A stretch of 32,169 bases of DNA, taken from Psychrobacter sp. Lineage in GTDB: Bacteria > Pseudomonadota > Gammaproteobacteria > Pseudomonadales > Moraxellaceae. The notes below the pieces were generated by a model that did no database searches, was not told where the DNA came from, and saw only the letters and a list, made by a program, of their open reading frames with translations. This document shows positions 12,150 through 16,894 of the stretch, piece by piece (the stretch's first letter is position 1; each line of letters opens with the position of its first letter). Location: positions 1 to 32,169 of the forward strand of contig NZ_JAKDUI010000005.1 in assembly GCF_030457785.1 (NCBI RefSeq), given 5' to 3'. Made by a program: the position numbers and the translations under genes.

Positions 12150-12174
12150 ATCGCCGGGTTAAAATCCTGGCGAT
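12150..12174. other. Hairpin spanning the rhomboid stop codon
   Basis: ATCGCCGGG and CCTGGCGAT form a 9-bp stem (one G·U-type pair) with a 7-nt loop containing the TAA stop of the rhomboid gene at 12161-12159. No T-tract follows on the minus strand, so it is not a classical terminator. It may stabilise the mRNA 3' region. Confidence 0.45.
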
Positions 12175-12767
12175 AATAGAGCGCCGATGAAATGTGGCAG
12201 GACCTGTGGTTCTAGGACAATGGTTGCGATGACCCCAAATGCACCGCCCCACATGTGCGCCATGTGATTGATGTTTGATCCGCCGCGTTTGTCAGCATAG
12301 ATACTGTAAGCCACATATGCAACTGCAAAGAGAATCGCAGGAATAGGAATAACAGCAAACAGGTACAACGTCTCCCATGGTGCCAGCAAAATAAAGGCAA
12401 ATAACACCGCCGAAACACCACCTGATGCTCCCAGACTTAAGTAGCTAGCACTGTTTTTATTTTTAAGATAGCTTGGAATCATGGCAATGATAATGGCGGC
12501 CACATAAAACACCACAAAACCGTAACCAAATAAAAATGATTGGTAGAGTCCTTCGATGGCTCGACCGAAAAAATATAAAGTAAACATGTTAAAAAGCAGA
12601 TGCATGCTATCCGCATGGATAAAACCATGTGTCACGAACCGATCCCACTGACCGTTGTTTACTGCTGGTGGATAAAAAATAAAGCGGTTAAACATCGTCT
12701 TGTTTTGCCATGCTAGCAAGCTGATAATAACCGTAATAATGATGATAAGAGTCGTGTGATTTAACAA
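12159..12767 (-). CDS. Rhomboid-family intramembrane serine protease
   Basis: A polytopic inner-membrane protease that cuts transmembrane helices of other proteins. The catalytic dyad is visible: Ser115 in SLGASGGVSA (GxSG motif) and His171 in NHMAHMWGGAFG. The loop region WDRFVTHGFIHADSMHLLFNMFTLYFFG (about 41-68) carries the conserved His/Asn set of the family. Six hydrophobic segments can be counted in 202 residues, a minimal GlpG-like core without an N-terminal cytoplasmic domain. The start is a TTG at 12767 giving MLNHTTLIIII; AAGGA lies 7 nt upstream, which supports this unusual codon. Natural substrates are unknown. Confidence 0.92.
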   Translation of the reverse strand: MLNHTTLIIIITVIISLLAWQNKTMFNRFIFYPPAVNNGQWDRFVTHGFIHADSMHLLFNMFTLYFFGRAIEGLYQSFLFGYGFVVFYVAAIIIAMIPSYLKNKNSASYLSLGASGGVSAVLFAFILLAPWETLYLFAVIPIPAILFAVAYVAYSIYADKRGGSNINHMAHMWGGAFGVIATIVLEPQVLPHFIGALLSPGF

Positions 12768-13188: not shown

Positions 13189-14901
13189 ATGGGTATTATT
13201 GATCAACTTGAACAAACCGTTACTCCAGCTGTGTTAGAAGGTCAGGCTCTAGATGACAATGTGGCTTATATCAGTCTGCTCGAGCAGTTCTACGCAATAT
13301 TATCCGCACGTTTGGCAATGCCCCAAATTTATTCACAACTGCTACGTCGTAATGACACGCTACCAGTTGATGGCGTAGCGGCGGCATCGTTATTTGAGCA
13401 GATTTGGCCAGACACCAAGGCGCAGCAGACCATCGTTCAAGAGCTAGCAGCCACGCATCACATCGAACAGTCTGAGACAACACAACTGCTGATCAAAGCA
13501 GCTCCACTTGCTTATCGTGAGCTTAAAGCCTTGGCGGACGGGCAGTTTTTGCCTGCCTTTCTACAAGACGAGCAGTCAGCAGTACGGCAGTATTTACCGA
13601 TTTGGTCGGCACCTATTATCACTGCTGCTCAAAGCATCGACGGTGGAGCAGATATGGATGCCGCAGTAGAAAAAAATACAGCAGCAGTAGGCGAAACCCC
13701 CTCAGACAGCCTGCATGAAGAGCCTATTACAGAGGCAAGGAGAAATAATACAACAGCTGATATAGCCAAAACACAGAGTCGAAGCATACGCCAAGCTGAT
13801 GCTGAAAGTTCCAATGCCGACTTTTTTGAAGAGGATGTTCATGATGACGACCATAAAAGCGCCATTCATGCGAACCCGGCAGCGCATCGTCTGCCGGAAG
13901 ACAGCGGTGTAAACCAGAAGAAAGGACCTACCCGTAACCAAGGTAATAGACTACTGGTGCGGATGTTTTTATTACTACTGGTTATAGCGGTGATTGGTTT
14001 GATTGCTTGGGCATTTCTCGTAAAACCTGACAATGCTGAAGAGATAGAACCAGTCGAAGAAACAGTTACTGCAGAACCTGCTGTTGAGATACCCACGACT
14101 GAAGAACCGAAAGAGATAGCGACACCAGTAGAGTTAATGGTGAGCGTGGATGATAGCGGCAGCTTGTATAGTTGTAGTGCGACTGTCGGCGATGCTGCAT
14201 TGCAAAGCACAATACAGCAGGCGTTTAACTCGAGCTTTGGCGGGCAGTCGAGCCGTTGTGAGGTCACTGTGCAGTCAGGCGTTTCCAACACCATGGCGGA
14301 TCTGCCAGCACCGTCACTACCGAATATTTTAACCATCCTGAGGTCTATTCCTTTTGCACGTTTACATCTGCAAAATAACAGTCTCAGGTTGGAAGCGCCT
14401 GATGATATGCAGCAGCAACGCTTGATCGCTGATATTCGTGCTTTAGCGCCGGCCACGACTATAGCCACGACCACAGACAGTGCAGCAGGTAGCACAGCAC
14501 CCATTACGACACCTGAGGATAACAATGATAGTGATGTCAGCAGTGAAATGAGTGGCATGAACCATATGTCAGGCATCAATGATCCAAACAACCAAATGGA
14601 TACCGGTGACGTCCCAGTAAACAATCAGAATGGCTATAATGATAGGATTGCGGAGAGTGGGGAATATCAGGCGACTGAGGATAACACGGGCGATATGGTG
14701 ATTCCTGCTCCAAATAATAATTCAAATAATCGTTTGGGCAACAATATGAACAATGTCCCTGCTGACAGATTTGATAATTCATTAACAAATAACGGGGCAG
14801 CGAATAGCCGCCAAACTAGCCCGTCAGGTCCTATCTCAGAAGCGGAAGCAGATGAGATGGCGAGTAGCGTCTTCGTGGCTGAACCAGCACAGGTTAGGTA
14901 G
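13189..14901 (+). CDS. Membrane-anchored BON-like domain protein, paralogue without OmpA domain
   Basis: I do not recognise a named gene. The 570-residue product has an N-terminal helical domain (about 1-150, starting IIDQLEQTVTPAVLEG, loosely DUF937/YidB-like), a polar linker, one transmembrane helix (about 255-278), and a periplasmic domain (about 315-430) resembling a BON or OmpATb-type fold with Cys329 and Cys357. The Asn/Asp/Ser-rich tail (about 440-570) has no recognisable domain. With no signal peptide, the N-terminal domain is expected to be cytoplasmic and the rest periplasmic. The downstream gene encodes a clear paralogue with the same order plus a C-terminal OmpA domain, which is absent here. 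AAAGGCAG precedes the ATG. The gap to the paralogue is 277 nt. A role in envelope organisation is inferred only. Confidence 0.8.
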   Translation: MGIIDQLEQTVTPAVLEGQALDDNVAYISLLEQFYAILSARLAMPQIYSQLLRRNDTLPVDGVAAASLFEQIWPDTKAQQTIVQELAATHHIEQSETTQLLIKAAPLAYRELKALADGQFLPAFLQDEQSAVRQYLPIWSAPIITAAQSIDGGADMDAAVEKNTAAVGETPSDSLHEEPITEARRNNTTADIAKTQSRSIRQADAESSNADFFEEDVHDDDHKSAIHANPAAHRLPEDSGVNQKKGPTRNQGNRLLVRMFLLLLVIAVIGLIAWAFLVKPDNAEEIEPVEETVTAEPAVEIPTTEEPKEIATPVELMVSVDDSGSLYSCSATVGDAALQSTIQQAFNSSFGGQSSRCEVTVQSGVSNTMADLPAPSLPNILTILRSIPFARLHLQNNSLRLEAPDDMQQQRLIADIRALAPATTIATTTDSAAGSTAPITTPEDNNDSDVSSEMSGMNHMSGINDPNNQMDTGDVPVNNQNGYNDRIAESGEYQATEDNTGDMVIPAPNNNSNNRLGNNMNNVPADRFDNSLTNNGAANSRQTSPSGPISEAEADEMASSVFVAEPAQVR

Positions 14902-15178
14902 CAGACGGACACAATGTCGTTTCGAGCACAAGTGCCCGCCAGCATGTAAATGGCCTGTGCTTGGATGACTTCGTGGTTACGTGAGGCAACTGAAATATTA
15001 CTTAATGTAGCATTTGAACAACAACTGGTTGATTGTGCATACATAGTTAGTACTTTTATAATGGCTAAAGTTGAATGTAGAAGCACAACTTCTTACTTAT
15101 TCAACACCATATATTGTCAAAAACTCTAATAATTAGATCATACAAATAAGCACTATTAAGTGAGGGAGAGCGCATACC

Positions 15179-16765
15179 ATGGATATTATCAGACATTTGA
15201 AACAGACGGTCAGCCCAGCTGTCTTAGAAGGTGATCGTAGTCCAGCTAAGGCAAGCTTAATGGAACAGTTCTATGCTATTTTCGCTGCGCGTCTTGCAGA
15301 TAAAGATACCTACGACCTATTCTCCAACGAAAGTATCGCCAGTGACGATCAAGCATTTTATGATCGAGTTTGGACAGATGGGACGCACCGTGACCAGATA
15401 TCTCGTGAATTGGCTGGCAAGCACAATGTTGATGTCACTGCCGCACGTGGAATGATTGCCATGGCAGCACCCTTGGCTTTTCACGAAATCAAAAGTCTAG
15501 CGGGTACCACACCGGTGCCACAGTTCTTGAGAGACAATCTTGCCAGTTACCAACACCTTATTCCTGCTTGGGCGAGTGCAGTATTGCCCGCCAGTATGTT
15601 GGCGGACGTACCTGCTCCTGCCAGTACAGCGCCATCGCAAAGCGAAGAAGAAAAAGGTGGCTTTATGAAAGCACTGCTGCCTATTATTGGTTTGATTATT
15701 TTAGGTGCACTGGCATGGGCGTTGCTACGAGGTTGCCAGGAAAACCCTGAGCCTGTCGCCACGCCAGCAGTTACCGAGCAAGAAGAAGATGGTGATCCAT
15801 CGGCTGTGGCAGCTGACGTTGAGCCTGCTGCACTGAGTATCGCTACTGGTGAGAACCGTGAGCTTTATGCTTGTAGTATGAATGTGGGTGATGAGGCGTT
15901 AGAGACGCAAGTCATAGACGCTTTAACTGCTACATTTGGCGAAGAGGCGAATAAGTGCCGTGCGGACGTTGATGATGGTTTTGCAGCAGATATGCCAGCA
16001 TCCGCTCAGCTTACTTCCATCTTACCTATCGTGAAAAACGTACCAAACGCTAGTATGATCATCAAAGGTGACCAAATCACTGTCAACGCGCCTGACGAAG
16101 CTGCACTAGATCAGCTAGTGGCTGACCTGCAAGCTGCTGCACCTGGGATGACCGTTCAAGCGGAAGGTCCGTTAGATCTACAGGGTGAGGTTGATGACAG
16201 TTTAGCGGCAGCGGACGCCGCTATGGATGATCTCGGAGAAAACCCTGATTCACGTGATGTGGCTCGTGCCTTGAGCATTCAGGTTATTAACTTTGAAGTA
16301 GATGCGTCAGCCATTCCTGAAGTCAATAAAGAGCTGCTTGAGCGTGCCTCACAGATTATCGCTGAAGTACCGGATATGGAGCTGGTAATCATCGGTCACA
16401 CAGACAGTCAAGCGTCTGATGATTACAACATGGCGTTATCTCGTGAGCGTGCTGAATCAGTGAGAGAATACTTGGTGTCTCACGGCATCGATGCCAGCAA
16501 ACTGTCGACTCAAGGCATGGGTGAGTCAGAGCCTGTCGCTGACAACTCAACTGAGCAAGGCCGCTTCCGTAATCGTCGAATTGAATTCGTGGTTAGAGAC
16601 GAGGTGAATGGTGCGAATAATGGGATGAACAGTGCAAACGATGGCATGACTATTAGCAATGATGCGCTTGACCCAGACTTGAACCCACTTGATAGTGATA
16701 ATGATGATTTGCTACCAGATGGTGATGACGTCACTCAGGGTACTGAGTTAGATCCAACCAACTAA
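15179..16765 (+). CDS. Inner-membrane-anchored BON-like/OmpA peptidoglycan-binding protein
   Basis: This 528-residue protein repeats the plan of its upstream neighbour and adds an OmpA C-terminal domain. The N-terminal helical domain is at about 1-145 (MDIIRHLKQTVSPAVLEG), the transmembrane helix at about 163-186, and the BON-like domain at about 222-330 with Cys232 and Cys260 at the same 28-residue spacing as the paralogue. The OmpA domain is at about 365-475, with GHTD (406-409), LSRERAESVREYL and NRRIE (465-469), the Asp/Arg features that hold diaminopimelate of peptidoglycan. The acidic tail (478-528) has DSDNDDLLPDGDD, like thrombospondin type 3 calcium-binding repeats. It probably tethers the inner membrane to the cell wall; the BON plus OmpA arrangement recalls mycobacterial ArfA/OmpATb. 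A strong GAGGGAGAG site precedes the ATG. Confidence 0.87.
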   Translation: MDIIRHLKQTVSPAVLEGDRSPAKASLMEQFYAIFAARLADKDTYDLFSNESIASDDQAFYDRVWTDGTHRDQISRELAGKHNVDVTAARGMIAMAAPLAFHEIKSLAGTTPVPQFLRDNLASYQHLIPAWASAVLPASMLADVPAPASTAPSQSEEEKGGFMKALLPIIGLIILGALAWALLRGCQENPEPVATPAVTEQEEDGDPSAVAADVEPAALSIATGENRELYACSMNVGDEALETQVIDALTATFGEEANKCRADVDDGFAADMPASAQLTSILPIVKNVPNASMIIKGDQITVNAPDEAALDQLVADLQAAAPGMTVQAEGPLDLQGEVDDSLAAADAAMDDLGENPDSRDVARALSIQVINFEVDASAIPEVNKELLERASQIIAEVPDMELVIIGHTDSQASDDYNMALSRERAESVREYLVSHGIDASKLSTQGMGESEPVADNSTEQGRFRNRRIEFVVRDEVNGANNGMNSANDGMTISNDALDPDLNPLDSDNDDLLPDGDDVTQGTELDPTN

Positions 16766-16830: not shown

Positions 16831-16862
16831 AAAGACCGCTTCACGATGAAGCGGTTTTTTTA
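16831..16862. terminator. Bidirectional terminator between OmpA-like gene and nagZ
   Basis: ACCGCTTCA and TGAAGCGGT form a 9-bp stem with a 3-nt loop, with a T-tract to the right and an A-tract to the left. It serves both convergent genes. Two near-identical 14-mers (GATTAGCTATCAAA, GATTGGCTATCAGC) lie just before it at 16795-16822. Confidence 0.9.
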
Positions 16863-16894
16863 TTTTGGTCAAACGATACCTGACTTGTCATCGT

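Follow-up and report, generated by a model that had tools for sequence, protein, structure and literature searches.

Most known links between the inner membrane and the cell wall are parts of motors or secretion systems. The closest described counterpart of the proteins considered here is Rv0899 (also OmpATb or ArfA) of Mycobacterium tuberculosis, and a 2011 paper reportedly dealt with the spread of Rv0899-like proteins. Periplasmic domains of the BON type are also known from two outer-membrane lipoproteins, namely DolP, whose BON2 domain binds anionic phospholipids (PMC7806268, available excerpt), and BonA, which forms a decamer (PMC8406262, available excerpt). Against this background, a tandem pair of genes, here called A and B, was analysed in a 32,169-nucleotide stretch of Psychrobacter sp. 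DNA (assembly GCF_030457785.1, contig NZ_JAKDUI010000005.1, positions 1 to 32,169), hereafter the window. An earlier sequence-only reading had drawn attention to the two open reading frames (ORFs), both of which were found at the coordinates it gave.

The reading favoured here, with a probability of roughly 0.58, is that protein B is a wall tether whose membrane helix makes specific contacts, and that protein A is a partner or regulator without a grip on the wall. The periplasmic half of this architecture is already known, being ArfA-like and having relatives with solved structures. A further observation concerns the membrane: the helix of B and its juxtamembrane cysteine form the most conserved part of the protein within the genus, and the reverse holds for A, FtsQ and TonB.

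A nearly invariant membrane helix in protein B

The features of gene B are as follows.

15179..16765, + strand: gene B, 528 residues; DUF937-like domain, transmembrane helix with juxtamembrane Cys, ArfA-type BON-like domain, OmpA domain, acidic tail
15179..15604, + strand: B N-terminal helical domain, residues 1-142; from BLASTP, profile comparison and model
15665..15739, + strand: B predicted transmembrane helix and LRGCQ motif, residues 163-187; C186 at 15734-15736
15818..16174, + strand: B BON-like domain, residues 214-332; C232 (15872-15874), C260 (15956-15958)
16292..16576, + strand: B OmpA-like peptidoglycan-binding domain, residues 372-466; PF00691, E 1.2e-21; D409 and R424
16604..16762, + strand: B acidic, predicted disordered tail, residues 476-528; low model confidence, no Pfam match at E <= 1

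Among 22 Psychrobacter sequences (231 pairs), B residues 165-187, which hold the helix and the RGCQ residues, have a mean identity of 93%, compared with 64% in the N-terminal domain, 61% in the BON-like domain and 72% in the OmpA domain. When the window is compared with six Moraxella-type sequences, the helix is 75% identical versus 35, 34 and 54% for the same three parts, and across all 28 of these Psychrobacter and Moraxella-type sequences the best 20-residue segment of the whole of B starts at residue 164. Both C186 and an Arg or Lys at position 184 are present in 36 of 36 aligned sequences. The median ratio of nonsynonymous to synonymous substitution rates (dN/dS) of the helix is 0.01 over 15 loci, at a dS of about 1.3, which is near saturation.

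The helix of A is 50% identical against 58% for each of its N-terminal and BON-like parts (378 pairs, 28 sequences). The control protein FtsQ gave 53% for the helix and 71% for the periplasmic part (29 of the 30 loci given, 40 genomes), and the TonB group gave 68 and 87% (22 of 23, picked by similarity from 30 loci), with control helix segments chosen by hydropathy, species sets that differ, and each contrast drawn within one protein. Because the helix is nearly frozen in B but not in A, FtsQ or TonB, it probably makes specific contacts and is probably more than a simple anchor. Judged from the pattern of conservation, it is probably bound to something specific, either to itself, with a possible disulfide at C186, or to a membrane partner.

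The juxtamembrane residue is a third cysteine of B that had not been mentioned in the sequence-only reading. It is found in none of the 65 A ORFs, whose cysteines comprise the pair in the BON-like domain, one in the N-terminal domain of five ORFs, and two more in the frame-shifted ORF of locus L122.

Domain organization and paralogy of the two proteins

The corresponding features of gene A are listed here.

13189..14901, + strand: gene A, 570 residues; DUF937-like domain, cytoplasmic linker, transmembrane helix, ArfA-type BON-like domain, disordered tail, C-terminal peptide
13189..13629, + strand: A N-terminal helical domain, residues 1-147; paralogous to B 1-142 (BLASTP E 1e-25)
13951..14019, + strand: A predicted transmembrane helix, about residues 255-277; hydropathy peak 3.08, juxtamembrane Cys absent
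14122..14478, + strand: A BON-like domain, residues 312-430; C329 (14173-14175), C357 (14257-14259)
14488..14814, + strand: A predicted disordered Asn-rich tail, residues 434-542; low model confidence, 21% Asn
14827..14898, + strand: A conserved C-terminal peptide, residues 547-570, GPISEAEADEMASSVFVAEPAQVR; from the C-termini of 37 A sequences

The proposal that A and B are paralogous is borne out by two significant BLASTP blocks, one over A 1-168 (35% identity, E 1e-25) and one over A 257-480, which covers the helix and BON-like domain (29% identity, E 6e-24) and ends, past that domain, in low-complexity sequence. The AlphaFold2 models have the same order of helices in the two N-terminal domains, as expected of the shared helical domain described earlier, and each protein has a single hydrophobic segment (A about 255-277, B about 163-184) that is modelled as a helix (A 252-277, B 167-184). 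These models were run on single chains. For B the mean predicted local distance difference test score (pLDDT) was 81 and the predicted template modelling score 0.54, and for A they were 69 and 0.40. The pLDDT values are mostly 85-98 in the N-terminal and BON-like blocks, with an exception at A 51-70 (76 and 83), and are low in linkers and tails.

Two cysteines 28 residues apart are present in both proteins (A 329/357, B 232/260), as first noticed. This spacing is exact in 65 of 65 A ORFs and, for the last two cysteines of B, in 72 of 79 B ORFs, and is thus not a matter of chance. In Psychrobacter submarinus (L183:6001-8070; also L079:5669-7741), B is 690 residues long and has a duplicated BON-like domain and five cysteines.

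The N-terminal domain of A and B is, by profile comparison, a divergent DUF937 domain. In one hhalign comparison, 23 Moraxellaceae sequences matched 12 DUF937 sequences at 95.6% (E 1.1e-8), and 20 column-scrambled controls reached at most 0.31%. The Pfam model of DUF937 (PF06078) matches neither A nor B at E <= 1, and its single weak match in their own genome is located outside both genes; with A as the query, Pfam and NCBIfam together gave nothing at this threshold. DUF937 is a family of unknown function, and the suggestion of a sensor-like cytoplasmic domain gained no support. Distant proteins were found in which a DUF937 or YidB match goes with OmpA and, in some cases, with a BON-like segment (L194, L195, L196, L214, L216 and L218). 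Other weak profile matches have the DUF937-type domain without OmpA (L097, L193 and L217 by Pfam, L219 by eye), and two further candidates, L197 and L098, look unrelated by eye.

The periplasmic domain, as modelled, folds like the central domain of Rv0899. In A it is predicted with a pLDDT of about 93-97 over residues 311-420, and the sole Protein Data Bank (PDB) matches of the A model at E <= 0.001 are three Rv0899/OmpATb entries with Z scores of 9.7, 9.6 and 8.9, the first of which (2kgs) aligns with a root mean square deviation of 3.1 over 112 residues. The next rows have Z scores of 5.1, on the N-terminal domain, and 4.4, which is the next on the BON region. For B, the top PDB match by Foldseek is likewise Rv0899 (2l26, E 3.8e-12, 274 columns), and it spans more than the OmpA domain. 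Its TM-scores of 0.17 and 0.34 and deviation of 18.4 show that the two periplasmic domains are placed differently, a difference that would account for such low scores. In the VIA-align comparison of B, the matches listed were filled by the OmpA domain, so that the other parts of B were barely tested. A profile of the N-terminal domain, helix and BON-like domain retrieved only two chance rows from PDB sequences (E 1.1 and 1.3). The term BON-like therefore stands for the predicted, ArfA-type fold and not for family membership, as the Pfam BON model (PF04972) has no match in A or B at E <= 1.

An OmpA domain is confined to B, as had been stated. The PF00691 match to B 372-466 scores 77.3 bits against a curated cut-off of 27.2 (E 1.2e-21), and A has no such match in the Pfam search. 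Residues D409 and R424, invariant in 17 sequences, are presumably the Asp and Arg that contact peptidoglycan. Two conserved residues of an OmpA-like domain are treated in the available excerpt of PMC6572160, in which D268 was tested. The 92.6% complete assembly that carries the window has just two OmpA-domain matches, B, at the same position, and a 175-residue frame. A third, barrel-type OmpA was not found in it, although one from Psychrobacter that has barrel regions and is distinct from B has been published (PMC9785100, available excerpt). The acidic tail of B had been likened to calcium-binding repeats. It is acidic and predicted to be disordered (pLDDT under 50 over residues 480-528), and its DPDLNPL stretch recurs in 51 of 79 B ORFs, but Pfam contains no match at E <= 1 besides OmpA, and a calcium-binding tail was rejected for want of a matching family.

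A conserved peptide at the end of protein A

The description of A as the short paralogue was wrong, since A has 570 residues and B 528. A is devoid of an OmpA domain, but in the AlphaFold2 model its cytoplasmic linker takes up about 105 residues and its disordered tail about 110. Residues 434-545 have a pLDDT under 50 and are 21% Asn. Residues 543-570 are 78% identical with a median dN/dS of 0.09, compared with 52% and 0.17 for the preceding tail (15 loci). Among 37 C-termini, the full peptide occurs in most sequences near that of the window and the core alone in divergent ones, and the core pattern is found in 58 of 65 A ORFs. Purifying selection acts on A as a whole, with median dN/dS values of 0.11 in the N-terminal domain, 0.09 in the BON-like domain and 0.09 in the C-terminal peptide; conservation is lower in A than in B. 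By sequence, the end of A resembles a flexible arm that bears a short docking peptide.

Distribution, gene order and ancestry

The interval between the two genes is described by one further feature.

14902..15178, + strand: A-B gap, 277 bases; weak promoter-like site at 15114-15141 (consensus scan only)

The gene pair was surveyed in 80 loci, of which 77 are from Psychrobacter and 3 from Moraxella, with a threshold of at least 300 residues for an A ORF. Such an ORF is present in 65 of the 80 loci, which amounts to 65 of the 77 from Psychrobacter. The survey of co-occurrence that had been proposed thus recovered the tandem pair widely, and neither an absence of co-occurrence nor unrelated N-terminal folds were found within this genus. 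Wherever both ORFs are present (64 of 64 loci), A precedes B on the same strand, and the gap ranges from 261 to 812 bases where both frames are whole. A is broken in L122, and the B frame is broken or shortened in L179 and L181. Two loci have no bearing on the absence of A, as L114 ends 487 bases before B and Moraxella L192 spans just 461 bases upstream.

In a tree of 65 sequences, those of A group as a clade of their own (100/93), as do those of Psychrobacter B (93/84). A second OmpA-bearing paralogue, very divergent and without the juxtamembrane Cys, is found at L076:5412-7178 in genome G036, the other copy of which groups with Moraxella. This long-branched sequence falls with A (99/82), perhaps as an artefact or perhaps because of an older duplication.

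A-type ORFs outside Psychrobacter were not found in the loci read, where B-type ORFs are present. A full-length B query has matches in 249 of 249 genomes of the family, of which the weaker may be to the OmpA domain alone. The OmpA-free query, covering A from the N-terminal to the BON-like domain, matches 187 of the 249 genomes and 9 of the 16 sampled Moraxellaceae genera, and outside the genus these matches are mostly B-type copies. Full-length relatives were taken from 20 genome stretches in addition to named Psychrobacter and Moraxella loci; the relative in Acinetobacter baumannii is 33.5% identical over 89% of B. Farther afield, the profile of the N-terminal domain, helix and BON-like domain matches 12 of 293 genomes of the order at E <= 0.001 (10 in the family) and 9 of 398 of the phylum (2 in the genus), and in another order 6 of 200 genomes match a distant relative, with the query's own genome counted.

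Among the distant relatives, L195 and L218 have the whole plan of DUF937-type domain, helix, BON-like domain and OmpA domain. Their BON-like segments score 22.2 and 26.6 bits, respectively, against the Moraxellaceae profile, whereas the best of 600 shuffles scores 6.2. L196 is more doubtful, as its segment scores 5.0 bits and does not rise above the shuffles. In L218, two cysteines 27 residues apart align with the cysteine pair. From the plan, scores and aligned cysteines of these sequences, the architecture is older than Moraxellaceae, and the cysteine pair is probably older as well.

Several neighbouring elements were also recorded. A gene for a rhomboid-family protease (12159-12767, minus strand) adjoins the A-B pair divergently, and does so in Psychrobacter loci with sufficient flanking sequence. 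It also adjoins B in Psychrobacter loci without A and in three loci that are assigned to Moraxella by their name or by the tree (L066, L190 and L191), so that A stands between the rhomboid gene and B. The rhomboid protein was considered as a partner candidate, and its gene was not found beside B in L075, L078 or the loci of other genera. Downstream, nagZ is convergent with B, and a hairpin between them with T runs on both sides (16835-16865) resembles a shared terminator. The consensus scan reports this hairpin for the minus strand alone and may therefore overlook sites on the plus strand; with that limit, it lists no terminator-like site in the 277-base gap between A and B.

Proposed mechanism and alternatives

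From the computed domain make-up, predicted folds, ancestry and conservation, we infer the topology, the wall binding, specific intramembrane contacts, any disulfide and any contact between A and B in the following model. B would cross the inner membrane once and connect it to peptidoglycan. Its DUF937-type helical domain would lie in the cytoplasm, and the two domains that resemble ArfA, the BON-like and the OmpA domain, in the periplasm, where the latter would hold the wall. The predicted fold and conserved residues of B argue for this link. The helix with its invariant juxtamembrane Cys would make specific intramembrane contacts, either in a homodimer, perhaps with a disulfide at C186, or with a membrane partner. 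A would have arisen by duplication, losing wall binding and the juxtamembrane Cys but retaining the cytoplasmic and BON-like domains, through which it would most likely join or modulate B-type assemblies, and its tail peptide would hold a target other than the wall. Gene order and shared domains are the grounds on which A most likely works on or with B. The idea of a transenvelope tether is supported from the inner membrane to peptidoglycan, but nothing observed here reaches the outer membrane, and the word transenvelope overstates the case.

A number of observations weigh against this model. Beyond the Psychrobacter and Moraxella-type sequences, the OmpA domain is more conserved than the helix of B: in comparisons with eight sequences of other genera, the helix is 44% identical versus 22% for the N-terminal domain, 35% for the BON-like domain and 49% for the OmpA domain. 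The juxtamembrane Cys and OmpA domain are not strictly coupled, since L076, L194 and L216 have OmpA without the Cys. The conserved Arg or Lys before C186 would lie on the presumed periplasmic side, contrary to the positive-inside tendency. Finally, A was not found in 10 Psychrobacter and 2 named Moraxella loci (L190 and L191) that keep B, with 5.7-6 kb upstream examined, and L167 has a broken remnant of A with an intact B. B must therefore work without A. The remnant (L167:4572-4938, Psychrobacter sp. TAE2020) precedes the intact B, and in the similar locus L170 no A was found, which together point to recent loss.

These absences also favour the best of the alternatives, in which B is a plain tether, the genes are functionally independent, and A is recruited elsewhere through its C-terminal peptide without touching B. 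The lower conservation of A, its absence from more than one lineage that retains B, and the gap with a weak promoter-like site before B (never less than 261 bases in loci with whole frames) are all consistent with independence, but the invariant order and strand of the two genes and the retention by A of both shared domains under purifying selection are not readily accommodated. This alternative is a possibility to be taken seriously, albeit a clearly less probable one than the tether with specific helix contacts. A more ambitious version of the favoured model seems improbable. According to it, A and B would form one envelope device, in which a covalent C186-C186 dimer of B sits on the wall with its helix docked in a specific membrane partner, the DUF937-type domain reports the state of the wall or envelope to the cytoplasm, and A, a subunit with no hold on the wall, enters through its BON-like and DUF937-type domains while its C-terminal peptide holds a second ligand.

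The exceptionally conserved helix, together with a plan of one helix and a periplasmic wall-binding domain, also recalls MotB, TolR and ExbD, in which case the helix of B and a polytopic partner would together line an ion path, with the wall-binding domain as stator. Such stator proteins bear an acidic residue in the membrane helix. Neither Asp nor Glu occurs at residues 165-183 in any of 36 sequences, or in the 17 residues before the R/K-x-C motif of 78 B ORFs, and a motor-type partner was not found among the window genes scanned. A motor stator identity was rejected for the lack of the acidic residue, and this alternative is very unlikely.

Least credible of all is that B is processed to a lipoprotein, with the helix as an internal type II signal, C186 lipidated and the BON-OmpA part released to the outer membrane: the hydrophobic stretch of about 20 residues, with a Lys before it and mostly Gly, Ser or Ala before the Cys at its end, does resemble a lipoprotein signal, but a folded cytoplasmic domain precedes it and all 36 aligned sequences have Arg or Lys at position -2, which the usual lipobox pattern (PROSITE PS51257) excludes. 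An internal translation start was considered because the stretch before B residue 163 resembles a ribosome-binding site in the window. This route to a secreted lipoprotein was rejected, as the start is not conserved across the window and 78 B ORFs (ATG 65, TTA 8, TTG 5, CTG 1), a ribosome-site-like pattern is present in 41 of 79, and Arg or Lys always occupies position -2.

Significance and comparison with known systems

The putative link formed by B-type proteins is kept in several Moraxellaceae genera, including Acinetobacter baumannii, and joins a well-studied periplasmic module to a domain whose family has no known function. If the one-device version were true, it would provide a first function for the DUF937 fold. 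The nearly frozen helix with its one Cys lends itself directly to testing, with the species that lack A as natural controls. Beyond the OmpA part, no named family for this protein appears in the Pfam and NCBIfam rows shown. Literature searches combining DUF937 with OmpA, or ArfA with BON, nitrogen-fixing and OmpA, found nothing, and the excerpts returned for BON and OmpA with Acinetobacter and peptidoglycan do not describe this architecture. The available excerpt of a paper retrieved for DUF937 does no more than name a protein. Likewise, the available text of the literature searched contained neither this DUF937 fusion nor the tandem partner devoid of OmpA nor the frozen one-Cys helix. The earlier view that the combined architecture has no name needs to be qualified to the extent that relatives exist, with Rv0899/ArfA matching the periplasmic half and DUF937/YidB-type proteins carrying helix, BON-like and OmpA parts.

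Each of the known systems shares a different portion of this architecture. Pal, OmpA and MotB have an OmpA-like domain in common with B, but their anchors and companions differ, and include a lipid anchor, a beta-barrel and a motor stator. DolP and BonA share with A and B a periplasmic BON-type fold and an envelope role, and DolP of Neisseria gonorrhoeae (6xmv) matches A at a Z score of just 3.6. Proteins of the DUF937 (PF06078) and YidB-like (PF20159) families resemble the N-terminal domain by profile comparison, although A and B fall short of the Pfam model of the former. The operon of Rv0899/ArfA holds two further small membrane proteins, and no such pair was found among the window genes scanned. 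Rv0899 itself and B have a common order of one anchor, a BON-like domain of the same fold and an OmpA-like domain (domain description from the available excerpt of PMC6151718). Unlike Rv0899, A and B begin with a DUF937-type cytoplasmic domain of about 140 residues, their BON-like domain bears a cysteine pair 28 residues apart, and a tandem paralogue without OmpA is present. Overall, B would work like ArfA outside the membrane, but is not to be filed as ArfA.

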